From: Yamagishiella unicocca
Lineage: Eukaryota > Chlorophyta > Chlorophyceae > Chlamydomonadales > Volvocaceae
Reading direction: 5' to 3'
DNA: 64,000 bases
NCBI GenBank assembly: GCA_003116995.1
Contig: BDSL01000029.1
Coordinates: 248,001 to 312,000, forward strand
Under the pieces are notes generated by a model that worked only from the letters and a program-made list of their open reading frames with translations, made no database searches and was not told where the DNA came from. Positions 31,840 through 55,143 of the stretch are shown here, one piece after another (positions within the stretch are counted from its first letter, which is position 1; each line of letters starts with the position of its first letter). The translations under genes and the position numbers were made by a program.

Positions 31840-34800
31840 ATGGAACATTGCAAGGCCCTTCGCGGTGCACCAATGCCGCTCTGGCTATTCATCCCGCTAT
31901 TGCTGCAAAGCTTACTGCTGTATCCAGCAGGATGCGCTAGGTTTGACCCCGCGGGCCCGAGCTCCAGGGGCCCGGGCACAGCTGACAGGCATTCACCGCA
32001 TAGAGACAACAAGGGTGATCTCGGCCTGGACGATGGCCTCGAAAATTCACCAGTCGATTTTGAGCTAATATCTTTACGCGACCAGCTCCAGCGACACGCC
32101 CGAACCGTGGGGCAGGGCTCGACTGCCACAGCGCCACCCGCTGACCTCCTGGACGGTGGCGCCCGACCCTGGCTAGATCGTGTGCCGGTGTCGGGGGCAA
32201 TCGCGGAATCTATGACCGCCTACGGTCCCAGCGTAGCGCCCAGCCCTAACAGCCCGCCGTCCGCCAGCCATGACGTCAGACCAGACGGCGCGTTCGCCAA
32301 TGGCGGCGCAATGGCCGACCAGACGGCGGAGTCATCGCGTACGACTCCGCACGGGCTGCACCATGGTGTGTCCCGCGCGGCGCACAGCAACCCTGTCAAC
32401 GGGCACTACGGACACCTGGAGGGGGGTGGGGAGGTGGACGACGCAAGCGACTGGGCGTGGCGCCGCCGCCGGCTCGAGACCACCCCCATACACTCGTACT
32501 GCCTTACGTCGCCAACTGGAGTCTGCTACCCCTGCCAGACGGGCTACGGGGAGGACCCTTGCGCGGTGGGGCCGAGGAGGGAGAGGTCGGGGATTGTGTG
32601 TGTTATTATTGTCTTGGCGGGATGTGAAATTTAGGGGGGGGGCTGGTGTTTCTCCCAGCAACACTGGGCGCTTTGTGTTGTCGACCATGTCCACCTGTAT
32701 GGGCCTAGACGAGGTGGCCACGGGAAGAGGAACCGTCGGGCCTCCCGACCCCACCCCCGAGGACCGGCCATGTCGACCGGGCGGGATGGTGCACAGCCTG
32801 CTATTGGCGCGCAGCCCCCCGCCCATCCTGTACCTGCATTGCTAACTGCTGCGACGACACGTGGTGCTCGTCCAACCGCCCTGCTCGCAGACCGACGACC
32901 TCTACTTCCTGGACACTGCCAAGTGCATCACACCGTGAGTGCGCCTCCGTGCAGCATCACGCCCACCTGGCCACCACACCGCTTCTGGTGCTGCTGCCGG
33001 TGCAGCGGGGGTCTGTGGGTGTAGCGGGGGTCTGTGGGTGCCGCGGGGGTCTGTGGGTGCAACGGGGGTCTGTGGGTGCGTGCATGGTCACGGTCGCGGC
33101 GGATGTGTCGCCGAGCACAGCAAGCAGAGGAGAGCTCGACGTAGCCGGGGTGATGTCTGTTTGGTCAACAAGCAGCGGCCTTCCTGCACAATTAGTCTCG
33201 AAGGAAAAGGCCGCCGGTCGGCAATTTGCGCGACGCCCACCTGGCGGCTGCCCTGGCTGTGCTGACGCCTTGTGGCCCTGAGTCCTGCAGCGGGTGGGAG
33301 GGTCGCTGCTCCTGCCGGGCCCGATGTGAAGGGACCGGGGGCTACATAAAATAACGGGGGGGGCGGACTGGCAGCCAGGGGAACAGCCGCGGGCGCCCGG
33401 CCGTCGGGTCACGTTGAGGCACCTCTCAACGGTGCTTCAACGTGACCCTGCCGGCCCTCATCGCAGTTCGTTCCCTGCCGCCCAGGGGGGCTAGGCCCAG
33501 CCCGCCTCTCTGCATGCTCACGGCTGACTAGAGTGCGTTGTCTACGTGGATAACTGTTAACTGTCCCCCGCACTTGCCGCTGCCATTGTTGGGGTTGGCT
33601 CGGAGGCTCACGTACATTCCATTTCTCGCTGCTTGCCCTGCTGTCACCCACTCCGTTACTGGTCGGCCGCCTCCCTCCGTGAACACAGGTTCTACTATTT
33701 TGGCAATGTTTCGGACGATAGCATCTGCGGAGATGAGGTACGGTAGCGCAGGGAGCGGGGACCGCTGGGAGGCGGGACCAGGGCGCATTGCCTTGCTGGA
33801 TTTCTTGCCGGGCCAGCCGCACCTAGCCTCTGCTGTTGGTGCCGTCTGCAACATTCCGACCCCAGAAACGCGCCCTGTAGCCATCCGACTCCAGGTTCGG
33901 TCTCGGTGCCCAGCCTGGAGCCCTCCTCCCGCCCCTCCACCCGCCCCTCCTCCCGCCCCTCCACCCGCCCCTCCACCCGCCCCTCCACCCGCCCCTCCAC
34001 CCGCCCCACCACCCGCCCCTCCACCCGCCCCTCCACCCGCCACTGCCCGCCTGCCCCACAGGTCCGACCCCGGAACATCGGAAAGCTGGACCTCCAGGTG
34101 TCCGTGAATTACGGCACCAGCCGCGTGCTGACCAAAGTGGGCCAGATGCTGGTGTTCATGCAGGTGAGGGAGGGCCGTCCAGGACTGGCTGGGGGAAACA
34201 CGGTGTGCGCATCCTCCACCCACGAACGCCCTTGACCTGCTGTGGCCCTACCCCTCGCCTCGCAGATCAGCGGGCTGCTGACGGTGTCTGTGCAGATGGA
34301 ATGCCCCTGGCTGGCGGTGGTGGACCCTACACGGTCCGGCGCGCGGCTGCGGTTGTCGCTCAGGCACCCGAACGGCACGACGTGGGTTCGCTGGATGAAC
34401 ACCACCACCTCGGGTAGGCTGGCGCGCGGGGCCCTGCCCCCGGGTGCGCGCGGGGCGGGAAGAGAGGAACGGAGGAGAGCAGCTGGCAGCTGGTGCCGGT
34501 ACCAAAATAACCTCGGTCGGGAAGGGATGCCGTGATAGGGGAGTCGTACGTTTTGAGGTTCGAGTACCAGGGGGAGGTGGTCGAGAGCGGGCCAGAAACG
34601 AGACCCTAAACCCCTAATGCGTCTGGAGCGCTGCATCGACGGCTCCAGAACTGCCTGCCGGCCCTGTGCTCCGTGCGACCTAACGTGAACCCGCCCGCTG
34701 CGCCTGCTGCTGTTGTTGTTGCTGCTGATGTTGGTGCTGCTGCAGGCTCTCAATACGTGAGCTGCGCGTCTTTCTCTGTCCAAATCAAGAACTTGAATCC

Positions 34801-37714
34801 CGCCATACTGGGAGACAATGGCTGCGAAAACATCACCTACACGGCGACCGCCGCATTCTTGACGGAGACGTATCAGGTGGGCGGGGCCGCGTGCTGGGGG
34901 ATTTGCACCAGCACTAGCCGGGCGCTATTGCACGGACACGGGCAGTGCAAGTTTCCAAGACAGTCAAGAATGCTCTCCGATGCAGCGCCATGGGAGGAAA
35001 GCTTTCCTACAGAGTATTCAGTCGACTTGAACGATCAAGTTGCCTTCCTCGGCCAGAGTTGTAAATGCGTGGATGCACACGGATTTAGCTGCGCTGATAA
35101 TGCGCTAGGCTTGGTTGTCCAAGAGACTGAGGACGAGAAAATGCACGGAGAGATCAAGCGGAAGCGATTAGCTTGCAAAAACGGGCGCACTACGGATAAC
35201 TACGGGCGGGCAATAGGTGTGACTTGTGCGGTGACCTAACGGTGTGACCTGTGCGAATGAATGGACGTGATGTCCCGCTATCAAATGTTTTTGATAACAG
35301 TTGCGAAAGGCTCTCCAGAATGCGAGTATTACAAGGGAGCCAGAACGGCCAGGGGCCTGTACGCAAAAGTGGGACTGGACGAGCTGGTCGGACGCGGCTT
35401 GTCGGACGATGCTGATTGCGACTTACGTAGGGACAACGTACATAAGCAGTGTGCGTATGACAATGATAACAAGGGTGAACAGCCGTGGCTGATGCAACGA
35501 GTCCCACGATTGCACAAGGCAGGCGTGAACTGACGCGATACGTACATACAATGTAGTGATATGTTGAATTGACTGCTTCCGGGCGCTTTTGCGTTTGCGA
35601 CGTTTCGTCCTCCGGTTCCGGCTCCGACTGGTGAAGTTTGAAGGCGCGACCTTGGCAGGACGCACCTACGTTCCTAATTTGTGTTTATGTAGATACAATC
35701 TACGACTGGAGGGTATGCTTCTAGTCGCCTGTTCCAGCTGTACGGCATTGGTGTTTGCTACCCCAGCCTCATCGTCCTGCCCGCCTCCTGCTGGCTGCCC
35801 ACCCAGGCCGACCCCTCTGAAGAAGGCATCCCGGCCGCCTGCAGCATCAACGACGAGTTCACCAAGGGCACGCAGGCAAGGGCCCAACGCGGCCGCGGCA
35901 CGGCGTCGCAATGCTGCATCGTGCGCTTACCTGCGGCACCATTCACTCACTCGGGTGGCGCTGCATCGCGCCGCGCATCAGTATTCTCGCAGCGCACTCA
36001 GCAGGAGTAAAGCCAATTTGTCACATGTTTGTATATGTTGTGTCCCAGGGTGTTGCCAAACCTGTCGTATGTTGCATATGTCGTTGTGTGGGGGCGAGGC
36101 CCCATGTGTCATCAGTACGGGATGCACGGGCGCTGGATCCGTGGTACGACACGGACAACATGCCAAAGCAACAGTACTGGCATCGTGCAGTCGGTGACCG
36201 TGTTTTTCTTACGCCCTCCTCCTCGGCCTTTCCGCGCTCCCCAGGCAAATTTTACGATGAACTACACGCCTATTCCCTACCGGAGGCCGCCACCCCCGCC
36301 ACTGCCACCCCCGCGGCCCCCTCGTCCTCCTTCGCCACCGGTACCACCGGCACCTCCGGAGCCAAACACGCCAGACTGGCCCCCCTGGCCCGACTGGCCG
36401 CCAGACATGCCGCCAGACCCGCCGCCACCACCGCCATCACCGCCCACGCCGCCATCGCCTCCGTCGCCACCGCCGTCGCCGCCATCGCCGCCGCCGTCGC
36501 CGCCGAGCCCAAGCCTGCCGCCGCCATCGCCGCCGTCGCCGCCGAACCCTCCACCATCGCCGCCTAAGCCGCCAAGCCCCAGCCCGCCGCCACCGTCGCC
36601 GCCGTCACCGCCGAGCCCGAGCCCGCCGCCACCATCGCCGCCGAGCCCGAGCCCGCCATCGCCACCGCCGCCATCGCCGCCAAGCCCGAGTCCGCCGCTA
36701 CCGCCGCCGCCGCCACCGCCGCCGCAACCACCGTCGCCGCAACCACCGTCACCTTCTCCGTCGCCGCCATCCCCTAGGCCCCCCGGGCCGCCACCGCCGC
36801 CACCGCCACCGTCACCGGCCCCAAGCCCACAGCCGCCTAGCCCCCGGCCTCCTAGCCCACCACCTCCAAACCCATCCCCACCCACCCCGCCATCACCAAG
36901 CCCACCGCCTCCATCACCAAGCCCGCCGCCGCGGCCACCATCGCCACCGCCGCCACCTTCGCCACCGCCGCCGCCGTCACCGCCGTCGCCGCCGTCGCCG
37001 CCGTCACCACCGTCACCGCCGCCTCCTAGCCCCCCCTTACCGCCTCCACCTGCGCCACCCTCCCCGCCTCCTTTACCGCCGTCACCGCCACCATCGCCCT
37101 CGCCACCAGCCCCACCACCGTCGCCATTCCCATTTCCCCCCCCTCCCAGTCCCTCCCCGCCTCTGCCACCTAGCCCTCGGCCCCCAGCGCCACCGCCACC
37201 ACCCAGCCCGCCGCCTCCTAGCCCCAAGCCACCGCTGCCACCCACTCCTCCCTCACCGAGCCCTCCTTCGCCACCCCCAAGTCCCCGGCCGCCGAGTCCG
37301 CCACCATCACCTATCCCGCCCAGCCCTCTGCCTCCAAACCCACCGTCCCCCCCACCGCCCTCCCCTCAGCCTCCAAGCCCGCGGCCCCCCGTGCCACCCA
37401 GCCCACAACCTCCATCCCCTCCGCCCAGCCCCCCGCCGCCGAGTCCTCCATCGCCTCAACCCAGCCCACCGCCCCCTAGCCCGCTGCCCCCTAGTCCCAA
37501 GCCTCCCAGCCCCTTTCCCCCCAGTCCCTTCCCACCTGCTCCCCTAAACCCCTCCCCAAGACCCCCTAGCCCGCTACCTCCGAGTCCCCTCCCACCGAGC
37601 CCACCCCCTTCACCCGTTCCTCCGAGCCCTCAGCCTCCGCTGATGCCCTCGCCTCCACCATCCCCGCCACCGCCAGCTCCACCCTCACCGCCACCCTCGC
37701 CGGCCCCCCCCTAG
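31840..37714 (+). CDS. Giant hydroxyproline-rich surface protein, N-terminal part
   Basis: Starts with ATG at 31840 and a signal peptide (LWLFIPLLLQSLLLYPAGCA). Supported exons are 31840-32565, 32891-32934, 34062-34163, 34266-34413, 34746-34876 and 36245-37714. The link between 32934 (phase 2) and 34062 (phase 0) is not resolved. Residues near 225-257 carry a Cys pattern (SYCLTSPTGVCYPC, GEDPC, DDLYFLDTAKC) weakly like pherophorin domains. A beta-rich ectodomain follows (NIGKLDLQVSVNYG, ARLRLSLRHPNGTTWV, YVSCASFSVQIKN). The last exon is a 490-residue shaft of [11 protein letters not shown] and similar motifs, expected to be hydroxylated and glycosylated. It ends at a TAG right after a run of eight C (37704-37711). 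I infer that the gene continues at 38175: no signal peptide precedes the next PPSP exon, and a one-base change in that run would give a donor of exactly the needed phase. Confidence 0.7.
33000..33080. repeat. 18-bp GGGTCTGTGGGTGNNNCG repeat
   Basis: Four copies of a unit like GGGTCTGTGGGTGTAGCG in the unresolved part of the giant gene between the exons at 32891-32934 and 34062-34163. Confidence 0.85.
33528..33724 (-). other. Possible antisense terminal exon or gene fragment
   Basis: Read on minus, an acceptor (CATCTCCGCAG) at 33725 opens 65 codons with ordinary protein composition, including AIVRNIAKIVEPVFTEGGG and NGMYVSLRANPNNGSGKCGG, then QLTVIHVDNAL and TAG at 33528. The plus-strand frames here look much less protein-like. 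I recognise no family and found no upstream exon. It sits inside the unresolved part of the plus-strand surface-protein gene and may be a captured fragment. Confidence 0.35.
33915..34042. repeat. CCCGCCCCTCCA-type repeat in an intron
   Basis: About eleven imperfect 12-bp copies (CCCGCCCCTCCA and variants) directly upstream of the acceptor at 34061. They act as an extended polypyrimidine tract and would encode PAPP in one frame, but the downstream exon joins in phase without them. Confidence 0.85.
36245..37711 (+). repeat. PPSP shaft 1 (coding)
   Basis: About 490 codons dominated by Pro and Ser after NFTMNYTPIPYRRPPPP. The first 130 codons include PDWPPWPDWPPD, then regular SPPPPSPP and PSPPSP units. 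It matches the hydroxyproline-rich rods of volvocine wall proteins and agglutinins. The antisense strand shows a Gly-rich shadow frame. Confidence 0.9.
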
Positions 37715-38174: not shown

Positions 38175-39173
38175 CCCGCCACCGCCGTCCCCGCCAGCGC
38201 CGCCGTCACCACTGCCGCCGTCACCACTACCGCCGTCACCGGCGCCGCCATCGCCCAACCCGCCGCTGCCGCCGTCGCCGCTGCCGCCATCGCCCAGCCC
38301 GCCACCGCCGCCCTCTCCATTGCCGCCATCACCGAAACCGCCATCGCCGTTGCCGCCCACCCCGCCATCGCCACCTCCCCCACTGCCGCCGTCCCCTTTC
38401 CCCCCCTCGCCACGTCCCCCACTGCCGCCGTCACCTCCACCTCCCTCGCCCCCACCCCCACCGCCACCGTCGCCTCCCCCCCCGTCGCCACGGCCCCCAC
38501 TGCCGCCGTCGCCTCCACCACCCTCCCCCCCACCCCCACCGCCGCCGTCGCCTCCACCACCATCACCCTTCCCGCCTTTACCGCCGTCACCTCCACCACC
38601 CTCACCACGGCCTCCCCTGCCGCCGTCGCCTCCACCACCGTCGCCGCCGCTGCCGCCTCCACCACTGCCGCCGTCGCCCCCACCACCGTCACCCCGGCCC
38701 CCTCCACCGCCACCCCCGCCCCGGCCCCCTCCACCGCCGTCGCCCCTACCGCCGAGCCCGCCGCCGCCCCCTTTACCGCCATCACCTCCGAGCCCCTCCC
38801 CGCCGCCGCCACCCAGCCCTCGGCCTCCTTCACCCAGCCCTCCTCCTCCACCACCGCCGCCGTCGCCCCGACCGCCCCTACCGCCGAGCCCGTCGCCGCC
38901 GTCGCCACCACCACCGCCGCCGAGTCCACCTTCCCCCAAGCCTCCAAGCCCCGATCCACCATCACCCGAGCCCCCAAGCCCTCCCCTTCCTCCATCGCCA
39001 TCTCCACCGCCGTCCCCCAACCCTCCAAGTCCCCAGCCGCCGTCGCCACCGTCCCCAAGTCCTCCGCCGCCGCCGCCTCCACCATCACCGCCCCCGTCGC
39101 CAGCTCCGCCTTTCCCTCCCCGCCGGCCGCGCCGGCCCCTAGCTCCTCGGCCTCCTCCACCGCCTCGGGCCAG
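38175..39173 (+). repeat. PPSP shaft 2 (coding)
   Basis: About 333 codons of [13 protein letters not shown] motifs. The other plus frames (Thr/Ala/Val-rich and His/Arg-rich) and the Gly-rich minus frame are also open because of the trinucleotide-like repetition; the PPSP frame was chosen because it joins the downstream exons in phase. Confidence 0.85.
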
Positions 39174-41109
39174 GTACGGCAAGCGTGTTTGCCCCTTCGG
39201 GCCTTCCCTACGCCCGACCCCGCGCATTCACATTTGCCACCGCCACCGCCACTGCCACTGCCCTCCCCCGTGGCGGCACGCTCACGCATGCTTCGGGCCG
39301 GGGCACGCCGCTCGATTACCAGATAGCGGTGTTCGGGCTTTGCCATGCAAGGTCCCCTCCAGCACCTGGACTCGCTTAAGTGACGACGCAACCCCCTCGC
39401 ACCCCCGTGTTCACCTGGAGGTGGTCCTTGCGGTCCTCGGTTATCCATATACTTGCATGCTCCCCCCTCCTGAACCACCCCGCCAGGTCTCCGCCTCCCC
39501 CCGTGCCGCCCGAGCCGCCCAGCCCTCCGCCGTCTCTCCCTTCACCGCCCCCGCGCGCGCCGTACATGCCACGTAAGCGACCGCGCCGTCCTCAAGCGCT
39601 CCCTCCCTGCAGCCGCAGCTCCCGTCCCTTTGCATTACACGCAGGTGCCCCTGTCCCTGCTCACTCGTTTCCCTGCGCCACTGCCAGCCTGCCTGCCTGT
39701 CTGCCTGGTAGCAGCCAGGGCACGCGCTGGCCACCTGGCAGTGCCCTTTCACTCATGTCCTGGAACAACCGGACCTCCACAACCCCACCGTCAACGCCTC
39801 CTGGCCCGCCCGACCCTCATTTCCCACCCCCGCCCCCACCCCCTTCGGACCCCAGGTCGCCCCTGGCCGCCCCCACGTCCCCCTCGGCCGCCCCCCAAGC
39901 CGCCCCGGTCACCCGGCATGCTGGCTCCAGCCGCGCCGCCGCCGCCCCCGCCTCCTCCGCCTCCTCCGCCGCAGCATCCGCCCCAAGGTCCCACCCGACC
40001 CCCACGGAACCCCCCCTCGCCGCCCGCCCAGCCTCCCACGCAGCCGATGCTGCCCCCGCCGCCGCCCGATACTCCGCCTGCGCCCGCAGTCCCCGGCTGC
40101 CTCCGCGTCACCGCGCGCAGCGGCAAGATGTATGGCGACCTATCCCTGGTGGACGCGGGTACCATGATAGTCGGCTCCGTGGACTCACGCACCATCAAAC
40201 TTGACATCTCGATGTTCTACTTCTTCGCCTCCGGCGACACCGCCATCGGCCTGGACCTGGTGCCTGTGCCCCGCGGCACCCCGGCGCCCACTTCCTGCCC
40301 GGCCCCAGCAGATGTGGGTGTCTCCGGGGGCATCAGCTTCCGCACCCGCGGCGACTGCACCAGCCGCACATCGAGGTTGCTGGTGGACGTGTCGTCGGTG
40401 ATGCCGTGCTACTCGAACACGATGAGCTCAGGTGGGGGAGGGGGCAGCTGGCAGCTGCGGGGGGCGGGGAGGAGACAGCGGCAGTGCGGCTGCTGGTCGG
40501 GTGGGGGTTGCTGCTCACTCAGCCGGTGGGTGCGCCCCCTCCCCGCCACGTCACGAAAATCCCCATGCCGGCCACACGTGTTGCACCGTGCCTTTGTCTC
40601 GCGCGGAGACGTGATGTCCTAACGCGTAGCGGCGTGGTGTGGGGTGTGGAAGGGAAACCTGTGTGTCGGCACTGGGGGTGTGTGGGGCGGGTTCGGGGCG
40701 GGTTCGGGGCGGGGTTTGGTAGTGGGTTTTACGTTATACCCCGTTATAGCCCGTTACGACATGATACGACATGATACGACATGATACGACATGATACGAC
40801 ATGATACGACATAACGAGACCAACGTCCGCACCCCATCTGGTCCCCAAAGTACCGGCTGCTGGCTTGACCCCCCCTCCCCTCGGGCCAACCCCCCCCCAC
40901 CCCCCCCCACGTCGGCAATCAACCAAACGCAGCGAGCTTCATCATCTGGCTCACAGTCGACGTCGCCAACAAGGTGAGTGGGCTGGTGGTGGGCGGGGCA
41001 GCGGTAGCGGCACCAGATGAGTGCCGGCTTCCTGGGTGGTAGTGGGTGGGTCGACGCGGGCGGAAGCGACCTCCAGTGGGCCCTGACTATAGCTAGGCGT
41101 AACACCCAC

Positions 41110-41166
<57 letters not shown>

Positions 41167-44100
41167 GTTTGTCTGTCTGTCTGTCCGGCGTTGCGATGTG
41201 TTGTGTGTGTATGAGGCTATGCGGCGGTGGCGGTATGCAGATCGGCTCCAGGGAGGGCGACTGGATGCATTTTGGATCTTGGCGGGGTTCCAGATCCAGA
41301 GTTGTGCGGGTCCTCCCTCCCCTTCCGGCTGCCACTCTCCAACATTGTTTCCCCCCCTGGCACCCCACCCCCTGGCACCCCACCCCCTGGCACCCTCCCC
41401 TGCAGGCCTGCTCGTCCAGCGTCTTTACAAACCTGTGGGGTGGCACCTCCGTCTCCAAGATCAGCTCCTCCGGCTGCGCCTACGTGCCCTTCACCCTCAC
41501 CTGCGACATCAGCTGCTTCGTACCGCCGTCTCCGCCGCTGAACCCATCACCGCCCTCCCCAGCACCCTCGCCGCCACCCCCCGACTTCCCCCCAACCAGC
41601 CCCTCGCCGCCCAACCCTCCCCCCCCGTCCCCACACCTCCCAGCCCGCCACCCGCCAACCCCGCCGTCCCCACACCTCCCAGCCCGCCACCCACCAACCC
41701 CGCCGTCCCCACACCTCCCAGCCCGCCACCCGCCAACCCCGCCCCCACACTTCCGCCGCCATCTCCGAGCCCTCGCAAGCCCCTACTACCGCCGTCATCA
41801 CCACACCACTCACCGCCCCCTCCATATCCGCCGCCACCACCACCCAGCCCCCCTCCTCGGCCTCCTCCTCAGCCTCCTCCTCAGCCGCCCTCGCCGGCGC
41901 CATCCTATCCTGGCAGCCCGCCCCACCTTCCCCCAACCTCGCCACCCAAGCAGCCCTCCACACCACCTCCGATGCGCCCGCAGCGGCCCCCTCGCCCCGG
42001 ACGACCCCAGCGGCCTCCCTCCTCCCCTACGCTCCCCCCTCTCCTCCTCCTCCCTCCTCCCCCCCGCCTCCCTCCTCCCCGCCGCCGCCGCCACACTACC
42101 CCCCACACCCCTCACCAAGTCGACCGCACTACCCCCCCCAACCCGCAACAACTCGACCCGACTACCCCGAGCCGTGGGCTCCGGACAGCCCCCTGGCCCC
42201 CGGCACGAGACCCTCCGGCACTCCCCTCCCTCCGCGGCGGACGCCGTCGTACCCTACCGCCCCCCCTGCGGACCCACCCCCGCCAGGGTATCTCGACTCT
42301 CCCCCCCCTGCGCCCGCCCAGCAGCCCCTCTCCTCCCCGCCATCCCCGGTGTACCCCCCCAGCCCCAGTCCCCCGCCACCACTGCTGCCGCCAGATGTCC
42401 CAACCGCGCCTTCACGCCCACCGCCGGCGCTGCCTTCGCAGCCCAGTCCCTCGCCGTACCCGCCACCGCCACCGCAGCTGCCGCCGGCTCCTCCGACACC
42501 GACTGGCCCCCCGTCGCGGCCGTCGCCATCACTGCCACCGCCCTTACCTCCTCCATCTCCCTCATATCCTCCATCGCCTTCTCCTCCATCGCCTTCTCCA
42601 CCCAGTCCCTCGCCATACCCGCCACCGTCGCCGCCGCTGCCGCCGGCTCCTCCGACACCGACTGCCCCCCCGTCGCGGCCGTCGCCATCGCCGTCACCAC
42701 CCTTACCTCCTCCATCTCCCTCATATCCTCCATCGCCTTCCCCACCCAGTCCCTCGCCGTACCCGCCTCCGCCGCTGCCGCCGGCTCCTCCGACACCGAC
42801 TGCCCCCCCGTCGCGGCCGTCGCCATCGCCGTCACCACCCTTACCTCCTCCATCTCCCTCATATCCTCCATCGCCTTCCCCGCCCAGTCCCTCGACGTAC
42901 CCGCCACCGCCGCCACCGCCGCTGCCGCCGGCTCCTCCGACACCGACTGCCCCCCCGCCGCGGCCGTCGCCATCACCGTCACCGCCCTTACCTCCATCTC
43001 CCTCATATCCTCAATCGCCTTCCCCACCCAGTCCCTCGCCGTATCCGCCACCGCCGCTGCCGCCGGCTCCTCAAGCACCGACTGCCCCCCCGTCGCGGCC
43101 GTCGCCATCGCCGTCACCACCCTTACCTCCTCCATTTCCCTCATATCCTCCCTCACCTTCCCCGCCCAGTCCCTCGCCGTACCCGCCGCCGCCGCCGCTG
43201 CCGCCGGCTCCTCCATCACCGACTGCCCCCCCGTCGCGGCCGTCGCCATCACCGTCACCACCCTTACCTCCTCCATTTCCCTCATATCCTCCCTCACCTT
43301 CCCCGCCCAGTCCCGCGCCGTACCCACCACCGCCGCCGCCGCCGCTGCCGCCGGCTCCTCCATCACCGACTGCCCCCCCGTCGCGGCCGTCGCCATCACC
43401 GTCACCACCCTTACCTCCTCCATTTCCCTCATATCCTCCCTCACCTTCCCCGCCCAGTCCCGCGCCTTACCCGCCGCCGCCGCCGCCGCCGCTGCCGCCG
43501 CTGCCGCCGGCTCCTCAACCACCGACTGCCCCCCCGTCGCCTCCGTCGCCATCGCCGTCACCACCCTTACCTCCTCCATCTCCCTCATATCCTCCATTGC
43601 CTTCCCCGCCCAGTCCCTCGACGTACCCGCCATCGCCGCCGCCGCCGCTGCCGCCGCTGCCGCCGGCTCCTCAACCACCGACTGCCCCCCCGTCGCCTCC
43701 GTCGCCATCGCCGTCACCACCCTTACCTCCTCCATCTCCTTCATATCCTCCATCGCCTTCCCCGCCCAGTCCCTCGCCGTACCCGCCACCGCCGCCGCCG
43801 CCGCTGCCGCCGCTGCCGCCGGCTCCTCCACTCTCCCCCGCCCCTCCATCGCCGCCGCCTTACCCGCCCAGTCCCACACCTCCACCTCCGTACCCACCAC
43901 CGCAGTCGCCTTCAACCCCTGCTTCGCCATCCTCCCCCGAACCCCCACTGCAACCGCCCCCGCCGTTGGATCCAACCGAGCCACCGCTGCTGCACCGCCT
44001 CCCCCCGTCACCGCCGGCGCCGCCGTCACCGCCGTCACCGCAGTCGCCACCAGCGCCGCCGCAACCACCAAGGACGCCAGCCCCGTCGCTCCCGCCAGCG

Positions 44101-47100
44101 CCGCCGGCGCCACCAGCATCACCAGCACCTCCAAGCCCCATGCCAAGCCCGCCGACGCCCCCACAGCCCCCACCTCCACCCACCCCACCCACCCCGGCCC
44201 CTTCTCCACTGCCTCCTACACCGCCACCGGCGCCACCAGCACCTCCGACACCGCCATCGCCCCCCAGGCCCCCGCCAATCCCACCAACACCACCGCCGAC
44301 ACCCCCGGCGCCCCCACGGCCGCCAGCACCCCCAAACCCCTCGCCTACCCCTCCGCCACGGCCGCCCCTTCCAGCCCCTCCGGTGCCACCAACTCCCCAC
44401 CCTCCGGTGCCGCCATTTCCCCAACCACAGCCCCCCAGCCCTGCTCCCAAGCCCCCATCGCCGCCACCGCTGCCCCCCCGCCCCCCTGCTCCTCCACTCC
44501 CGCCCGCACCTCCTCCGACTCCCCCGGCGCCACCCAGCCCCCGCCCCCGCCCACCCTCACCGCCGCGGCCGCCCTCTCCGGCTCCTTCACCACAGCCGCC
44601 CGGCCCCAGACCCCCGCCTCCCAAGCCGCCCTCGCCGCCCACCAGCCAGCGCCCTCCATCCCCCAAGCCCAAACCACCGTCCCCCAAGCCTCCGCCATCA
44701 CCCCCCAAGCCTCCGCCATCACCCCCCAAACCCCCCAAACCCCCCAGCCCGGGTCCGAAACCCCCCGCACCGCCGCGGACGCCCCCCCGGCCGCCCGCTC
44801 CCACTCTCCCGCCCACACCTCCACCCTACCCCCCCAGCTCTCCGCCTCTGACGCCCCCCTCACCTGCACTGCCGACGTATCCCCCAAGCCCCTCTCCCAG
44901 CCCCCTGCTGCCGCCATCCCCCATCATCCTTCCGCCCGTGCCCATGGTCCAGCCGGTCCAGTACGCGCCACCACCGAGGGTTGCACCGTCGCCGCCGTCG
45001 CCGGGGCCTCGCCAACCGATGCCCCCGCAGCCGCCGCCGCCCTCCCCGCAGCCGCCGGGCCCGTACGTCGCCGTGCTGGTGACGTATGTGGAGTTGGTCC
45101 CCCCGCTTGAACCCAACACCACGCTCCCGGAAGTCCCCGGAGCCGCGTTGTCGATGGATTACAACTACCTGACTGCCTCGGCCAGGTTCCAGGTGGGCCC
45201 CGGCAGGGAGGGGAGGGGAACCCGCTCCGAAACCCGCCTTCCCCCTCCGTCCCGCTGCCCCCACCCCCGTACCCGTCATGCTAATCCAAACGCGTGCTCC
45301 CGACTACGCCCTAGTTTTTTACGTTCGCCTCCTTTCCCTATGTCGCTTACACGGGTTTCTTCGGCCGTTTCTTCGGCCCCTCCCCCTCCCACCGCCACCC
45401 CTCCCCAGGGCGACTCGCCGTTCGCCAGCTGCGACACCGCCGTACAGGGCACTCTGATGTCCACGCTGTCCAAGCTGCTGGGCTTCCCCACCAGCAACAT
45501 GTCGACAGCGTGCGCGGCGGTCAGCAGCGACACAACTACGGCGCGGCGCAGGAGGCGGCTCAACGAAGAAGTGGTGCGGGGGAGGTTTCGAGGAAGGCCC
45601 CTGGATGCGAGAAAAATTGTTTAGGACAGACGTTTTGAGATGCATGCTGGAGAACTGGGTTGAGGATACGAAAGACGAAGGTCGTAGGTCGACCTCCGGC
45701 GGCTAAGCTAAATCGGCTGCAGCGAGACGACGGGAAGCGAGGACAGGCGGGGAGGCTCAGGGTCGGGTCGGGTAGGGAACGCTGGCCCCCTCATGGGACA
45801 GCTGCCCCCTTCGCTTGTGTATCGTGTGTGCCCCCAAAAGCCCCCCCGCCTCGGAAGCACCCTCCCTCCCATTCCGACGTCTGCCGGCGCCGCCTCCTGT
45901 CGATGCCGCAGGCCTGCTCGGCCAAGGTCAAGACCAACATCACGTTCAAGGTGCGGTCCGGTCCCCGTACGGGGTGGGTGGGTGGGTGGCAGGGGCCCGG
46001 CTGCCTCCCCCCCCCCCGTGTTGCCCTGTCCTGTCCTTGTCGTATCAACGGTTTTTATGCCAACCCCGTGTTGCCCGCCAAGCACGGGGCAGCCCCACGT
46101 GGTGAGGTACCGTGTCCCGTGCAGGACGAGCCGAGCCGGGGGGGCACATCCAGTCGCCCTCCCGGGAGCTCTCGGCTCACTTTGCGCCAGCGGTTAACCC
46201 GCTGGCCGTTGGGACGACCGACACGTGGCGGCTACCCTGCCGTATAAACCCCACCCGACCTCCGCTGCCCCCCCTCCGCAGGTGGACCCCGCCGTGTCCA
46301 TGACCAGCTTCAAGTCCGCCGTGTATAAGGCCCTCTCCGACGGCGGCATCGCGGGCATCTGCCCTCTGGGGCTGCTGGACGGCGATTGGGCCCAGACCGG
46401 CACGACGGTAAGGGGGGGGGCGGGGTGGATTACGGGGGGCGGGGATGGACGAGCCAGGAGCTGGTGGTGCGCAAGGGACACGGGGGGCGTGACGCGTCCC
46501 GTCCCTGGAGCCGGGAGGGCACGGGGCGGGGGCCGAAGCATCTTTAGGGATCTGCCAGACAGCCAGACAGCTAGCTAGCCAGACAGCCAGACAGCCAGAC
46601 AGCCAGACAGCCAGACAGCCAGACAGCCAGACAGCCAGATAGCCAGATAGCCAGACAGCCAGACAGCCAGACAGCCAGATAGCCAGACAGACTGGTCGCG
46701 CCGTGGGACTGCTCTGAGTCGCTCTCAGCCCTCGTCGTCCGCTCTGCGTCTACAGCTCTCAGCCCTCGTCGTCCGCTCTGCGTCTACAGCCCCCACCGAC
46801 ATTTCCCTCAACGCCTCAATCTCCCCCGCTCCTCCGAACCCCTCCCTCCCCTCCTGCTCCTCCCGCGCCCCCCCTCCCGGTCCCCCGCCCCCCCTGCCGT
46901 ACTCCTCAGGTTCGCGCCATCACCGGAGAGTCCACCACGGACTGCCGTACCTTCAGCGGCACCGTGCAGTCAACACTGGCGGCCAGCACCGGCAGCACCG
47001 CCACCGTGTCGGGCTGCCAGGCAGCGCAGTTGAGCGGGGACCTGCCCGCCGCCCCGCCTCCCCCCACTGCGGCCGCTGCGGCAGCGGCCACGAAGAAGAT

Positions 47101-50100
47101 TCCATTCATGCTGATCGCCGCGGCGGTGGGAGGGCTGCTGCTGCTGGCGCTGCTGATATTTGCATTCTTACTATGGCGCAGAAAGGTGGGGGGGGGTGCA
47201 AGGAAAGGCGGGAGGGAGGGGGGAGCGATGGGGACGCCCTAGAGCAGGGGCCCGGCTTTAGGGTTTGGGGATAGGCAGTTGCACAGCTCCGGGTTGGGAA
47301 TGCACCGGTATGTTTGTGTGGATGATGGTCGCAGGCGGGAGGTGCCTTGTAGCGGCGCCTTCGGGGCAGGGCAGGGCAGGGCAGGGCAGGGCAGGGCAGG
47401 GCAGGGCAGGGCAGGGCAGGGCAGGGCAGGGCAGGGCAGGGCAGGGCAGGGCAGGGCGGTGCTTCGTCGGTTACCAGGCACTACCAGGAGGCTGTCACTC
47501 CCACGCTCATGGCTACGACGACTGACGCTCGTCCATATCCGTACTGCCCGCTGCGCCACTCGCGGCCGTGACCCTCCATCCCTCCCCCCCCCCGCGGTTC
47601 TTTAATTGTAACCCCCCCGCGGCCTCGTACACGGGTTTTCCTTGCAACCCTCCCCCCCCGCCCTGCCCTCCGCAGAAGAAGAAGAAGAATGGATTCGATG
47701 TTATGGCGGGTGCGGAGCCGGGTATGGCAAACGAGATATCCGCGGCCGCCGATGCCGTGCCCGGTGAGGGCGGCGATGGAGCGGCGGCTGGTGGGGGTGC
47801 TTTCGAAAGCGCCCTTGGCGCCGCCGCGGCCGGCGGCGCGGGCGCTGCCGCCGCTGGGGCTGCTGCCGGTGCCGGCGGCGCTGGGGCTGCTTCTGGTGCT
47901 GCTGCTGGTGCTGCTGCTAGCGGTGCTGCTGGCGGTGCCTTGAGTAGCGCCCTAGGTGCTGCTGCTGGCGGAGGTGCTGGCGGCGGCGGCTTGGATGGTG
48001 CGGCCGCTGCTGGCGGAGCTGCCGGTGGTGCCGGTGCTGGTGCAGCTGCTGGTGCAGCCGCTGGTGCTGCTGGTGCCGGTGGTGCTGGCGGCGGTGCTGG
48101 CAGCGGCGCTGGCGGCGGTGCTGGCGGCGGTGCTGGCAGCGGCGCTGGCGGCGGTGCTGGCGGCGGTGCTGGCGGCGGCGCTGGCGGCGGTGCTGGCGGC
48201 GGTGCTGGCAGCGGTGCTGGCGGCGGTGCTGGTGGCGGTGCTGGCGGCGGTGCTGGCAGTGGTGCTGGCGGCGGCGCTGGCGGCGGCGCTGGCAGTGGTG
48301 CTGGCGGCGGCGCTGGCGGCGGCGCTTTTGACAGCGCCCTAGGCGCCACTGCTGCTGGTGGGGATGCCGCTGGAGCGGGCCTGGACGCTGCTGCCGGTGC
48401 CGGTGCCGCTGCTGCTGCTGCGGCTGCTGCCGCTGCTGCTGCTGCCGGCGGAGGTGCGGGTGGCGCCGCGGCCGGCGGCGCTTTTGACAGCGCACTGGGC
48501 GCCGCGGCCGCAGCAGGCGGCGCAGCCGGCGGCGGCGTCGACGCCGCTGCGGCTGGGATAGCGGGTGCTGGTGCCTCTGGCAATGGTCTGGGTGCGGCTG
48601 GCGCTCCCACCGCGGCGGCCGGCGGCGCCTCTGACACCAACATGGGCATGAACGCGGCCGCACTGGCCGCAGCGGGCATCCTAGTCGGTGCTGCGGGTGC
48701 GGCTGGTACGGGTGCGGATGCTGCTGGTGCTGGTGCGGGTGCTGGTGCGGGTGCTGGTGCCGGTGCTGCTGCCGGTGCCGGTGCCGGTGCTGGCGAGCTC
48801 TTCCGCAAGACCAGCAAGCTGCCCTTGGAGGCGGGCGCTGGCGGCGCTGGCGGCGCTGGCGGCGCTGGCGGCGCTGGCGGCGCTGGCGGCGTGGGGGGGG
48901 AGGGTGCGTCACTGCCCGGGGCCCTAGGCGGCAGACCCGTCGTGCTGCCACACCTGGAGGCCGATGCGGACCACCTGCCCGGTCTGGACCCCTCCCTGGC
49001 GCCCCAGCCACTGGGGGCCAAGCCCGTGCTGCCCGTCGTCACTGGCGCGGCGGCGGGGGTGCTGGTGGGCGCTTCCGGCCGGGCGCTGCCGGGCATGGGG
49101 GCGCGGAAGTCCGCGCTGCCGGCCCTGGCGACACCCGGCAGCCCCGCCGCGGCTGCGTCCAACCCCTTTGCCAGGTCCCTGCTGCCCGGGCTGTCGATTA
49201 AGGAAGGCGGCGCCAACCCCACTGCTGCGGGGGCGGCGGGGGCGGGGGCGGCGGGGGCGGCGGGGGCGGCCACTCGCTCTCCCGCCGCCATCCCGGGTAT
49301 CCTCCACACGGCATCCATGGACGCTGCCACTGCGCGCGAGATGGAGGCGCAGTCGTTCATGGCTGGCTTAGAGGGCCTAGAAACCATGGGAGAGGTGAGG
49401 CTGGGGTGGGGTGATTGGGGGAGGAGGGGGGAGTGAGAGCGGGAGCCCCATCGCCGCGGTAGAGCGCCGGCGTTCCCTTGACAGCGCTCCCTACCACCCT
49501 AGCTGCCGTACCGTTGGCTGCCGGCTGCCGGCGCCTTACCCAGGCGTCGCACCTCAATCCGCAGACAATTGCACGTGGTGCGGACGATTGCACGTGGTAG
49601 GGGAGCGAGTGCACGTGTTACGGGCCCAGTTGCACATGGTAAGGACGATTGCACGTGGTACGGACGGCAACGTTGTGGGCCCTGCGGGCGACCCGAGGTT
49701 TCACCGGCATTGCCATGTCCCCATGTGCCCTTCCCCCCCTCCCCTCCCGCGCACCCCCAGGAGGCCCACAGCAGCGGCCCCTCAGTGACCAGCACCGCCG
49801 GGCTGTTCGTGCGGGGCGGCGACTCGACGACTGCGGGCTTCGTGTCCCACAACGTGCCCACAGTGACGGTGAGGCCGGGGGGGAGAAGAGAGACAGGCGG
49901 AGGGGGAAGAAGAGAGACAGGCGGGGGGGAGAAGAGAGACAGGCGGGGGGGAGAAGAGAGACAGGCGGGGGGGAGAAGAGAGACAGGCGGGGGGGAGAAG
50001 AGAGACAGGGGGGGAGAAGAGAGACAGGCGGGGGGAGAAGAGAGACAGGCGGGGGGCCATCCACAGCTGGCGGCGGCGCACTCGCCCAGCCACCTCCTGC

Positions 50101-53100
50101 ACACCAGTATGTACGGCATGGTGCGAAGTGACTAGCCACAAAGGCGCCCTCGTCAGGGTGGGGTGCAACTGCCCCCCTGGCACCCCGCCCCGCCCCACAC
50201 CAGTATTCATCTCAAACTTCTGTCCTAGATGGTTTTCCTTCCTACACGGGTTTTCCTTACAGCCCCACTCCACAACACCCCACCGCATCACGTCGCGCTC
50301 CCTGCACCCCGCAGCCTGGACTGCTGCCTGCCGCAACGCCGCCACTAACCACGGTGCCATTACACGGCATCCGACCGCCTCCCCCCTCGCGCAGGAGATG
50401 TCGGCGGAGCTACCAGTCCTGTCCGCCGCAGCCGTCGCAGCAGCGGTTGCCGCCGCGGCAGCAGGCGGCGGCGGCGCCGCCGCCGCTTTCAGCTTCCCAA
50501 ACACTGGCGCAGCAGCTGCGGGTGGCGCTGCCGGCGCCGCCGCCGCCGTTCCGCCTCCCCCCCTTCCCCCTCCAAAGGGCATTTTCTCGCGGCTCTTCGG
50601 CGGGATGTTCGGTCGGAGTGCTGCGACCCCCGGCGCCGGTGACACCGCAGCGGCATCAGCGGCGCCACCGCCCTCATCGTCGCCGCCGGCTCTGGAGCTG
50701 CCCTCGCTGGCGGAGTTGGACCAGCAGGCCGAGGCGGCGGCGATGGCGGCCGTGGCAATGACCATGGGCGGCGCCAGCGCTGCCGGCAGCGTCACCGGTC
50801 GGGGCTGGCCGCAGAGCCGGACGGCATCCGCGGTGGGACTGGGTATTATTGGTGTGGAGCTGGCCAGCCGCGCAGGAAGCGTGGCGGCGATGTCGGCGAG
50901 GGGGAGTATGCTCGCAGCCAGCACCGCCGGCGATGCGGGTGCCGCCGACCCGGCGGGTGCTGGTGCTGGCGGGTCCAGTCTCGCGGGGGCCGCCGGTGTG
51001 GCGGGTGCTGGCGGCGCCGCCGGAGGCGGTCAGGAAGGAGCGGCTGGCGGGGCCGGTCTGCGCACCGGAGCGCGCCTGTGGAGGGAGGGGGGCGCCGCGG
51101 GTGCTGGTGGGGAGGGGGGCGAGGATATGCACGCGGAGGCGGAGGCGGGCGGGGGGGCCGCGGCCGCAGCGGCGGCAACTGCCGCCGGCAGCAAGCCGGC
51201 CAGCAACCTGCCGTCGATCTTCATGAAGCCCAACGCGGCCTACGTACCCCCCCGCGACGCCGCTGTGCTAGGGGGCGACGGTGCGGATGGAATGAGTGGC
51301 CCAGGCGACGGCGACGGCGCCAATGCCGGCGTGGGGGGTCAGGGAGGGGCCAGCGGTCACTCCGTCGGGGGCCCACACGGGGGAGGGGAGGCCAGCTGGG
51401 CGACGGCGGCTGGCGCCGCTGCCGCGGCTGGCGCCGCCGGCGCAGCCGGCGGGTCCCCCGGCAGCACCCGCTCCAACCGAGCCGGGGATGCGCTGGGTGG
51501 TGCCGTGGATGCGGACTCCACGGCAGCAGCAGCGGGAGCGGGGGCGGGAGGTGGAGCCGGGGCGGCCGGCGCCTTCTCCACAGCTGCAAAGAGCCCCGGA
51601 AGGGGCGGCAGCGGTGGTGTGGCCGGGGGAGCAGCAGCGGCGGCAGCAGCTGGTGGTGCGGCGGGCGGTGCGTTCTTCAAGCGCGCAGGCAAGCGAGAGA
51701 GCGATGGAATGGACCCAGAAGCGGCGACAGCAGCAGCCGGCGCTAAGGCGGGAGGCAGCTTCTCTACGTTGTTCAAGCGGCCAGGAAAGGCCGTCAGCGC
51801 TGGAGTGGACTCCTCGGCCTCCGCGTCCGCAGGTGGAGCTAGGACCGGGGGCAGTTTCACCACGTTCTTCAAGCGCCCAGGAAAGGCCGCCAGCGCTGGA
51901 GTGGAGTCCGGGGCGGCAGGTGCCGGTGGTGTCGCGGGCAGTGCGGCCTCCGCGTCCTGGGGCCAGCGCAACGGCCGCAGCCACCTCGCGGGGGGTGCAG
52001 CCTCCGGCGATATGGATGCGGAAGCTGCTGGCGGAGCTGGCAGTGGCAACGCCGCTGCTGGGGGCAAAGCTACGGTCCACTTCAAGCGGCCAGGAGAAGG
52101 GCTCGGCGGCGATATGGATCCTGAATCCGCGGCAGCCGGAGCAGCAGCAGGCGGTGCTGGCATGTCCAAGGGCATGGCGCGCTTCAAGCGCGGGGGAGAT
52201 GGCGTGGGCGGAGACGATGGGCCTGAATCTGCGGCTATGGGAGGAGCGGGCGGCGCCGGAGGCGCCGCTGGAGGCAAAGCTACGGTCCACTTCAAGCGGC
52301 CAGGGGATGGTGCCGGCGGCGACATGGATTCTGAATCCGCGGCAGCCGGAGCAGCAGCAGGCGGTGCTGGCATGTCCAAAGGCATGGCGCGCTTCAAACG
52401 GCCAGGAGATGGGGTCGGTGGCGATATGGAACCAGAGTCCGCGTCATCCGAGGTGGTCGGCGGTGCTGGCGGGGCCGGTTGGGGCCAAGGCATGACCCGC
52501 TTCAAGCGGCCGGGCGACGGCATGGGCGGCGACATGGATCCAGAATCCGCGGCAGCGGCAGCGGCGGCCGGCGGTGCTGGCGGGGCCGGTTGGGGCCAAG
52601 GCATGACCCGCTTCAAGCGGCCGGGCGATGGCATGGGCGGCGACATGGATCCAGAATCCGCGGCAGCGGCAGCGGCGGCCGGCGGTGCTGGCGGGGCCGG
52701 TTGGGGCCAAGGCATGACCCGCTTCAAGCGGCCGGGCGATGGCATGGGCGGCGACATGGATCCAGAATCCGCGGCAGCGGCAGCGGCGGCCGGCGGTGCT
52801 GGCGGGGCCGGTTGGGGCCAAGGCATGACCCGCTTCAAGCGGCCCGGCGACGGCATGGGCGGCGACATGGATCCAGAATCCGCGGCAGCGGCAGCAGCGG
52901 CCGTCGGTGCTGGTGGGGCCGGTTGGGGCCAAGGCATGGTCCGCTTCAAGCGGCCCGGCGACGGCACGGGCGGAGACATGGATCCAGAATCCGCAGCAGC
53001 GGCAGCCGCAGCGGCCGGCCGCGCCGCCCCAGCTGGTGGCCATCGCAGCGTCAAGTTCAGCAGGCCCGGGGACGGCATCAACGGTGGATTGGACGGAGAG

Positions 53101-55143
53101 CCGGCAGCTACCACTGGCTTCGCACCGAGATCGCGGTCCGTCACTTCGGGGCCGCGGGGAGTTCACTTCAACCGCCCGGGAGACGGCGTCAGCGGCGGGC
53201 TGGAGGCCGAGCAGGCGGCGGCGGCGGCGGCGGAGGCCGCGCGGGCAGGGAAGTCCGGCTTGCCCTCCAACGTGCGGAACTTCAACAGGTACGGCACGAT
53301 ACCGTACGATGGGGTAATCTTGGAGGGTGTATGTGCGGCGCCCGCGCTTGTGTCCCGCGTGCACCCCTGCAAGCGGCCACTGGATCCGGCCCAGTCGGGC
53401 TGCAGAATGGGGCCACCCGTACTTCCATGCGGCTACGGCCAACCCCCGTACAGTGCGCTGTCGGGTGCAGTACGGTGTCAGGTATCCCAACCGTAACCCA
53501 GCTCACAACCACCACTTGCTTGCAATGGACGGCAGTTGCCGCCATCTCCTCGCCCCTGCACGCCCGGGCGCATAGGGCCCGGCCGAGCACCGTCGTAGTC
53601 CAAAGCTTCGTCACGCTTAAGCCCACACGTGTCTGTGATGTGTGCCCCACGTGCGCAGGCCGGGCATGGGTGACCATGACGGCAGCCTGGATCGTGAGGC
53701 TGGTGCGGTCGCGAGGGCCGCCGCGGCGGTCAAGACGGCGATCCCCGTCACGGGCATGCCCTCGCGCAAGATGAAGTTCGGCTCCGGCGTCGGCGAGGTA
53801 GGTCCTGACCGCCCGCCTCCGTCGCTGCCTCAGACCAGCATTACTCAGCATCACTCAGTACTACTCAGCATTACTGCTTGTTGGGCGTGTCTGGGTGAGC
53901 AGGGTTGAGCTGCGCGGGGCGGGATTTGAATTGCATTGTGGATTCGGTGTGGCAAGCCCTCACGCCGCCCCTCCCTGCAACCCAACCCCACTCTTCCCGC
54001 AGGACCCCGGCGACCTGCCCGACGAAGGAGGGCCCGCGGCGGCCCAGCGGTCCGGCCCCAGCGGCACTTCAACGGTAGGTCGGTGTGTCGGAGGACAGCC
54101 AAGCGCAAAACACCACGGTCGGTGTGTGTATGGGAAGGGGGGGCGGCCGATGGGCGACCCCGACCAGGTTTCCTTCCATATACCCCACCCACGGCAACTG
54201 ACCGGAGGTGTACGACGCCCCGACCGTGGACCTCCTTGCCCTTCCCCCTTCCCGTCCATGACCTCTTGAGGGACCCTCTCTCACCCCGTAAACGTCTCCC
54301 GACTCACCTGCGACTCACCCCCCACCACCAACCCTACGGCTCACCCACTCTTCCCGCCGCTCGCCCCCTCGCCCCGCCTCTCCTAACATCTCAGGGCGGC
54401 GGCCGCAGCTTGCGCCAGTTCAAGTTCGCTGGGTCGCAGGCCGATACCCTGGATGACGACGACTTGGAGGAGGATGAGCTGCTGGAGGAGGACGTGCTGC
54501 CCGCGAACGCCACAGAGGAGGTGCGCGCGGCTGGGTGGGCGGTGGAGAGGGGGGCGGCGAATGCGGGCGGAGGCGGGGGGCCTGGTGGGAGGGGCCCATC
54601 TGGCCAGCCCCTCTCCACCACTGGCCTCGCTTCCGCCCAGCTCAGCTAAGCCAGTGCCCGACAATCCTTTTGTCGGTTCTTGCCGCTGGGGATTGACCAG
54701 TTGGGTTGCGGTGGGCTAGGCTGCGGTGGGCTCGCTCCGCGCTCTTGCCTTACCCTCCCCACACATGCATCGCGTGGGTGGTTGTTGACGCGACTCCTGT
54801 CGTGCCCCGTGCGGGTTCAAGATTCCCCCCCAGCTACAACTCAGTTGCCTCTCCCCCTGTGCCTCCGTCGACTCACTTGTTTCTTCTCAATTCCCTCACC
54901 CCCCCCAACCCGCCCCCACTACACTTCCCAAGTCGGGTTACCGGTTCTCTTACATACCCCCCCCCCCCGCCGCCCCCTGCCCACCCACAGGAGCGCCGCC
55001 TCTATGCGATGCGCCGAGCCGGCCGCGGCCCCACGTACGGCGACGAGAAGATCGGGCCCGTGGATCAGATCCAACTGCAGCGCGAGCAGCGGCACCGCGC
55101 AATGCTGGAGCAGATGAAGAACAATGCGTGGGGCGGGGTGTGA
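38175..55143 (+). CDS. Giant hydroxyproline-rich transmembrane protein, main part
   Basis: Probably the continuation of the gene starting at 31840. Exons: 38175-39173, 39487-39572, 39856-40431, 40933-40973, 41406-45192, 45409-45573, 45912-45950, 46282-46407, 46910-47185, 47676-49394, 49761-49868, 50395-53288, 53659-53797, 54003-54074, 54395-54520, 54991-55143. Phases agree except for two frame changes inside the exon 41406-45192. Order: PPSP shaft 2, ectodomain ([17 protein letters not shown] to CDISCF), PPSP shaft 3, a second ectodomain ([14 protein letters not shown] to the Cys-containing region at 46910), one transmembrane helix ([20 protein letters not shown]) followed by WRRK and KKKK. 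A cytoplasmic tail of about 1,740 residues follows: Ala/Gly-rich, then about 16 F-K-R-P-G-D-G repeats, then an acidic stretch and a charged end. By topology it is a type I wall-spanning receptor or anchor. Agglutinin-like adhesion or wall sensing is inference; I know no named homologue. Confidence 0.75.
40754..40812. repeat. 10-bp tandem repeat in an intron
   Basis: Five to six copies of GACATGATAC in the intron between the exons at 39856-40431 and 40933-40973 of the giant gene. Confidence 0.9.
41109..41185. repeat. (CTGT)n microsatellite in an intron
   Basis: About 19 CTGT units with one short interruption, in the intron before the exon at 41406 of the giant gene. Confidence 0.95.
41521..45060 (+). 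repeat. PPSP shaft 3 with a 140-150-nt internal unit (coding)
   Basis: Nearly 1,200 codons, mostly Pro and Ser. Between about 42460 and 43830 there are about nine copies of a near 48-residue unit containing [18 protein letters not shown], then [19 protein letters not shown]. The Tyr-Pro pairs recur regularly. The PPSP frame changes once at the C8 run 41619-41626 and again at about 42000-42040. From 43830 the sequence turns to PAPPSPP and PSPKPP motifs. Confidence 0.85.
46553..46691. repeat. 8-bp AGCCAGAC tandem repeat in an intron
   Basis: About 17 copies of AGCCAGAC, some changed to AGCCAGAT, in the intron between the exons at 46282-46407 and 46910-47185. It is followed at about 46716-46790 by a roughly 37-bp duplication containing CTCTCAGCCCTCGTCGTCC. 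Confidence 0.93.
47364..47456. repeat. 5-bp GGGCA tandem repeat in an intron
   Basis: About 18 uninterrupted GGGCA units in the intron just after the transmembrane exon of the giant gene. Confidence 0.95.
49870..50058. repeat. 22-23-bp GAGAAGAGAGACAGGCGG repeat in an intron
   Basis: About eight copies of a purine-rich unit (GAGAAGAGAGACAGGCGG plus a short G run) directly after the donor of the exon at 49761-49868. Confidence 0.9.
51680..53290 (+). repeat. F-K-R-P-G-D-G protein repeat array (coding)
   Basis: About 16 copies of a module starting F-[KNS]-R-P-G-[DKE]-G, followed by GGDMDPES and an Ala/Gly spacer. The central copies, at about 52497-53010, follow a strict 111-nt (37-codon) period and are almost identical in DNA, indicating recent amplification. 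Outer copies are diverged ([33 protein letters not shown]). The last copy is split by the intron at 53288, with FNR before it and PGMGDHDG after it. Confidence 0.92.

Follow-up and report, generated by a model that had tools for sequence, protein, structure and literature searches.

A giant single-pass wall-type glycoprotein gene in Yamagishiella unicocca, a candidate wall anchor or sensor

Can one algal gene join wall-type proline rods to a large intracellular domain? The question arises in a 64,000-nt stretch of the Yamagishiella unicocca genome (C29:248001-312000, within 133 Mb and 1,415 contigs), which we call the window, and in which a sequence-only reading had proposed a protein of about 4,600 residues that might sense wall tension or take part in mating. 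Our gene model, built from the sequence, has 24 exons on the plus strand (31840-55143) and a coding length of 14,041 nt (~4,680 codons). Every element on the earlier list is present near the place given for it, and the order is signal peptide, ectodomain 1, shaft 1, ectodomain 2, shaft 2, ectodomain 3, one transmembrane helix and tail. Judged from its sequence, the gene is real, large, one of a volvocine family and subject to selection, which is clearest at the intracellular end. The exons of the model are as follows.

31840-32565, plus strand: exon 1; signal peptide, a propeptide-like stretch of ~180 residues, RRRRL and the first cysteines of ectodomain 1
32891-32934, 33689-33737, 34062-34163, 34266-34413, 34746-34876, plus strand: exons 2-6; ectodomain 1
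35807-35875, plus strand: exon 7; end of ectodomain 1, with a GC donor
36245-37713, plus strand: exon 8; final ectodomain 1 strand (YTPI), then the opening part of shaft 1, ending TA/GTAGGT (the slash marks the splice point)
38175-39173, 39487-39572, plus strand: exons 9 and 10; continuation of shaft 1
39856-40431, 40933-40973, plus strand: exons 11 and 12; end of shaft 1 and most of ectodomain 2
41406-45192, plus strand: exon 13; end of ectodomain 2, shaft 2 (~1,180 residues) and start of ectodomain 3, with two frame breaks
45409-45570, 45912-45950, 46282-46407, plus strand: exons 14-16; ectodomain 3, with RRRRR in a loop
46910-47185, plus strand: exon 17; end of ectodomain 3, transmembrane helix and RRK
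47676-49394, plus strand: exon 18; juxtamembrane motif KKKKNGFDV and Ala/Gly-rich tail
49761-49868, plus strand: exon 19; tail
50395-53288, plus strand: exon 20; tail, including almost every one of the 15 repeat-motif matches, and a 111-nt tandem array at 52379-53006
53659-53797, 54003-54074, 54395-54520, plus strand: exons 21-23; tail, with RQFKFAG among other motifs
54991-55143, plus strand: exon 24; the conserved last 50 residues, then the stop codon

The 23 introns are GT-AG in 22 cases and GC-AG in one (after exon 7), and reading phases are consistent across all exons, the exception lying inside exon 13. Two paralogues, on contigs C12 and C27, helped to place the 5' exons: the acceptors of their exon 7 counterparts set the start of that exon to 35807 and rule out a start at 35693, and their counterparts of exon 1 stand at the same place in the order. 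The signal peptide, from 31840, was called by eye, in keeping with the original proposal; no 19-residue stretch in exons 1-12 reaches a hydropathy of 1.9. Tandem arrays lie in intron 12 (41109-41185, CTGT x19), intron 16 (46554-46690, GCCAGACA x17) and intron 17 (47364-47457, GGGCA x18.8).

Is this one gene or several? Single exons span the borders between the end of ectodomain 1 and shaft 1 (exon 8), between shaft 1 and ectodomain 2 (exon 11) and between the end of ectodomain 3 and the helix (exon 17), and exon 13, which is unbroken in the paralogues, runs from the end of ectodomain 2 through shaft 2 into ectodomain 3. TGTAA, the poly(A) signal usual in volvocine algae, has two plus-strand occurrences inside the gene, both intronic (35060, 47607); the following one is at 56384. 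We considered, and rejected, a second gene with its start at 37.7-38.2 kb, the gap between exons 8 and 9 that the sequence-only reading had named as a possible promoter: the gap contains no ATG in frame with exon 9, and the exon 8 donor is conserved, reading TA/GTAGGT here and TA/GTGAGT in C12.

The relatives of the gene bear on the same question. There are at least five such genes in the genome, the window gene included, so the protein is not unique. Two paralogues have the full order, on C12 (~422.6-439.6 kb) and on C27 (~491.3-469.9 kb, minus strand). With 26 pieces of the window gene as queries, counterparts were found in order and on one strand for 25 of the 26 in C12 and 24 of the 26 in C27, and splice sites match for most exons looked at; the same pieces in the same order in both contigs are therefore more than chance. 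Shorter relatives on contigs C23 and C110 have the helix, ectodomain 3 and some of the tail in common with the window gene, and in Pleodorina starrii the same base occurs in P0001 (PLESTB_000067600), which is annotated as a single protein of 2,294 residues.

Some observations weigh against our reading. The joins of exon 8 to exon 9 and of exon 17 to exon 18 are given by splice sites alone, and exons 9 and 10 were left out of the 26 queries. For exon 22, no counterpart could be placed in either paralogue, and exon 12 lacks one in C27; intron 15-16 is absent in C12, and intron 13-14 in C27. The conserved C-terminal peptide is present in the window gene, C12, C27, C110 and P0001, but the part of C23 that was fetched did not yield it. 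These joins, and a conserved order that could also be that of a conserved gene block, are what two or three adjacent genes (a secreted head gene and a membrane gene) taken for one would have in their favour. That explanation is nevertheless scarcely credible, given the missing ATG and conserved donor at exon 8-9, the single exons across the remaining domain borders and the single annotated Pleodorina protein with the same base. One gene joining wall-type rods, helix and long tail, as first proposed, is supported by the border-spanning exons, the paralogue order and the P. starrii protein together.

Could the gene nevertheless be broken? Assembled exon 13 is 3,787 nt long, which is not a multiple of three, and its proline content by frame indicates reading in frame A up to ~41.62 kb, then in frame B as far as ~42.03 kb, and from there on in frame C. 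Each switch amounts to one base missing (or two extra) and lies at or near a C-run. If both breaks were real, only a truncated secreted protein would be made and the remainder would be decaying. Exons 14-24, however, comprise 1,938 codons in which the sole stop is the last codon, their splice sites are intact and nonsynonymous divergence (dN) stays below synonymous divergence (dS). The positions of the switches also point away from decay, C-runs being a usual site of sequencing errors. In the paralogues, the exon 13 counterparts are one open frame (2,628 nt in C12; 6,327 nt in C27, exon 14 included). Since exons 14-24 are open to the final stop, assembly error appears more likely than a dead gene, and we consider a frameshifted copy very improbable.

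What does the outer part of the protein look like? There are 16 cysteines in residues 1-1480 (signal peptide included) and six in ectodomain 3, and NxS/T sites number four in ectodomain 1, three in ectodomain 3 and one in the tail. Identity to the window copy is 63% (C12) and 59% (C27) in ectodomain 1, and 55% and 41% in ectodomain 2. That these two ectodomains are copies of one domain was rejected (hhalign probability 0.5%). Neither had a match in a PDB sequence search at E up to 10, and a single-sequence structure model of part of ectodomain 2 has a predicted local distance difference test score of 32. A Pfam scan of ectodomains 1-3, exons 1, 8, 18 and 20 and the C-terminal exons gave no match to the Pherophorin domain at E up to 1; nor was a PKD-like/channel domain or a WSC domain matched in these pieces.

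The sequence-only reading had three shafts, of 490, 333 and 1,200 residues. Pro/Ser shafts are indeed present, but the first two become one rod after splicing: shaft 1 covers residues 438-1353 (916 aa, with 613 Pro and 147 Ser), followed later by shaft 2 of ~1,180 aa. Proline rods of this type are described as stiff, glycan-cased polyproline II helices with 3.1 A per residue (PMC11015965, in excerpt). The 2,095 shaft residues, at 0.31 nm each, would therefore reach ~650 nm if fully extended.

Ectodomain 3, then one helix, then basic residues are found in the window gene, C12, C27 and C23, which were aligned (identity of the ectodomain 3 plus helix region to the window copy 53, 50 and 43%), and in P0001; in C110 they were matched only exon by exon. 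The helix, in exon 17 (46910-47185), has a hydropathy peak of 2.83 and is followed by RRK/KKKK across the splice junction. The hydropathy scan covered exons 1-12 and the sequence from ectodomain 3 to the end; from ectodomain 3 onwards, just one further stretch exceeds 1.9, and it is rich in Ala (1.96). Within the parts scanned, the proposed single helix with basic residues behind it therefore holds.

Ectodomain 3 has a basic loop with RR in every aligned copy. A modest structure model of its P. starrii counterpart has a SEA/ferredoxin-like order of elements and a disordered loop with RRRR, from which we infer that ectodomain 3 may have a SEA/ferredoxin-like fold and may be cleaved at the loop. 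The autoproteolytic SEA motif, of the GSVVV type, is not in the loop of the window copy. Notch has a SEA-like domain that is likewise described without an autoproteolytic site (excerpt of PMC6586460). A PDB relative of ectodomain 3 plus helix was sought by sequence and rejected (14 matches, the best, at E 0.037, from the helix region), and a Foldseek structure search gave 0 of 539 at E 0.001.

Protein searches with ectodomain 3 plus helix found P0001 only (E 2.7e-45, among the 2,321 candidates sharing most words that were scored; 45% identity over 81% of the query), as did a search with ectodomain 3 (E 2.8e-38, 3,181 candidates). With ectodomain 1, there was no match among 487 candidates of 1,121-3,568 aa. 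These searches are no measure of absence from Chlamydomonas or Volvox carteri.

P0001 resembles the window gene in ectodomain 3, helix, basic residues (RRRKKKK), tail motifs (FKRPDG and FQRPGMGDH) and C-terminal peptide. It differs at the outer end, where an unnamed domain plus DUF4215 occurs twice between shafts, in place of ectodomains 1 and 2. The unnamed domain is a repeat of ~255 residues without a Pfam name (residues 251-505 and 758-1017), ahead of each DUF4215 copy, and it also occurs in the Y. unicocca genome on C23 and C4. The C23 head combines this P0001-type domain with DUF4215 (E 7e-5; 23.5 bits, below the Pfam cut-off of 27). Since C23 and P0001 carry other heads on the same base, the base of the family, as read from these genes, is constant and the heads are exchanged. 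The further P0001-type head domain on C4 lies at C4:2257107-2258815 (E down to 1.5e-22).

The intracellular part was expected to run for about 1,740 residues to a phase-consistent stop, and it does: the tail has 1,736 residues, is free of cysteine and ends at the TGA at 55141-55143. Its 15 matches to the repeat pattern include repeated motifs of the type F-K/N-R-P-G-D-G, several of them inside the 111-nt array, whose units are 93% alike, so the array is recent. Exons 18 and 20 match no Pfam family. Conservation is highest in the last 50 residues (identity to the window copy 84% in C12, 80% in C27 and 57% in C110). A PDB relative of this peptide was rejected on sequence (five matches, best E 0.5). 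Across the 9 of 24 exons covered, dN is below dS in 17 of 17 comparisons with C12 or C27, several dS values being saturated and one infinite. Exon 24 has dN 0.09 and dS 0.61 against C12, and 0.13 and 0.77 in the other comparison; the helix exon is the loosest, with dN of 0.51 and 0.75 against dS of 0.80 and 0.93.

What might such a protein do? In relatives that form colonies, what was the wall has become the matrix of the body. From the architecture and constraint of the gene, we infer that the most likely function is that of an anchor and load reporter between the wall or matrix and a cytoplasmic partner, and on balance we lean towards a giant single-pass type I glycoprotein that links wall rods to this partner as an anchor or sensor in two parts, in the manner of mucins or dystroglycan. 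The cysteine-rich exchangeable heads would reach into the wall or matrix on Pro/Ser shafts, which would be hydroxylated, glycosylated polyproline II rods of up to ~650 nm. The basic loop of the SEA/ferredoxin-like domain would be cut by a subtilisin-like protease and the halves would stay together non-covalently, as in mucins, dystroglycan and Notch. The C-terminal peptide and tail repeats would bind a partner in the cytoplasm or cortex. As a whole, the protein would anchor the wall to the cell and report load or damage, and the two-part domain would fix the force at which the rods are shed. A role in wall tension or mating, as first suggested, is conjectural. Relatives of subtilisin-like convertases are present in Chlamydomonas (PMC6313938, in excerpt).

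Parts of this plan have precedents. Mucins, dystroglycan, Notch, Trop2 and EpCAM have a long ectodomain, one helix and a cytoplasmic tail. They are also described with a membrane-proximal domain of ferredoxin-like order and a cleavable site, which our protein may share (excerpt of PMC6586460); however, no significant sequence relationship was found, and heads and tail are unrelated. According to the same excerpt, juxtamembrane SEA-like domains can be proteolytic switches under force. The yeast wall sensors Wsc1 and Mid2 have a comparable build, with one helix and, outside the cell, an O-glycosylated rod that is described as a nano-scale spring (excerpt of PMC6704257), whereas the window protein has no WSC domain that we could find, is far larger and has another kind of conserved C-terminal tail peptide. 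A bolder form of the proposal is that volvocine algae evolved a family of force-gated matrix receptors independently of animals, with interchangeable heads on rods of up to ~0.6 micrometre, a SEA-like domain nicked by a protease, and a long repeat tail and C-terminal peptide coupled to the cytoplasm, in which load on the wall or matrix parts the halves or pulls the tail and so triggers wall repair or growth responses; we regard this as possible but unlikely.

The same basic site in the membrane-proximal domain would also suit a membrane-tethered wall precursor, in which the cut frees the whole ectodomain to the wall or matrix, and helix and tail have no task beyond its folding, sorting and delivery. 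Shortly after its synthesis, SAG1 is split into an agglutinin and SAG1-C65, a piece in the membrane (excerpt of PMC4362204), and high cleavage without a stimulus is described for SEA domains that lack a structured neighbour, MUC1 being an example (PMC6586460). A sorting tail, however, hardly needs 1,736 residues and a C-terminal peptide whose conservation exceeds that of every ectodomain, so we give the precursor a minor chance and keep the anchor or sensor as the preferred reading.

Another alternative is a ciliary or sexual adhesin like SAG1 or MST3, with shafts projecting from cilia or gametes and the tail anchored to microtubules. MST3, the Chlamydomonas mastigoneme core, shares very long extracellular proline rods, membrane anchoring and an intracellular C terminus of ~1,600 residues, which may anchor to doublet microtubules, but its PKD-like domain is multi-pass and is completed by SIP, and it has C-type lectin and Ig-like domains as well (excerpt of PMC11015965). 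The window gene has one helix in the parts scanned, no channel domain found in the pieces scanned and a possibly SEA-like membrane-proximal domain. With SAG1, proteolysis turns the product of one gene into an agglutinin and a C-terminal part integral to the membrane, but SAG1 is a gamete adhesin (PMC4362204); nothing here ties the window gene to sex, a link that was not looked for, and the likeness is one of published description. We therefore think an adhesin improbable. The sequence-only reading had known of no described family with the full order. None was found in the literature searched, outside which lay bioRxiv and most subscription papers, but MST3 and SAG1 carry much of the plan.

An anchor or sensor of this kind would have a place to fill. 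Both loss of the wall and defects in it provoke a response in Chlamydomonas, and which surface proteins sense them is an open question in the account consulted; its excerpt reports that no homologues of CrRLK1L or WAK, the wall receptors of plants, were found in Chlamydomonas, and proposes TRP channels with Hyp-rich domains and SRCR proteins as sensor candidates (PMC6704257). The present family may therefore offer candidates for the wall anchors or sensors not yet identified in volvocine algae and, running from wall rod to tail peptide, it supplies definite genes, an exact peptide and a discrete domain for functional work.

The surroundings of the gene hold other elements. About 1.9 kb before it, on the minus strand (24836-29932), lies a long interspersed nuclear element (LINE)-type element, with an open reading frame (ORF) for endonuclease (PF03372) and reverse transcriptase (PF00078), and an upstream ORF of 435 residues without a Pfam match. 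Beyond the gene, a convergent neighbour occupies 58059-64000 on the minus strand; it has ankyrin repeats at 63551-64000 (E 1.9e-7) and a channel-like hydrophobic segment without a Pfam match at 58059-59045, and is possibly an ankyrin-type cation channel. That these ankyrin/channel-like ORFs belong to a block duplicated with the gene was rejected, as no match was found in the DNA fetched around C12, C27, C23 and C110. A partial ABC-2 type transporter (PF01061, E 6.8e-13) lies on the plus strand at 21320-21736.
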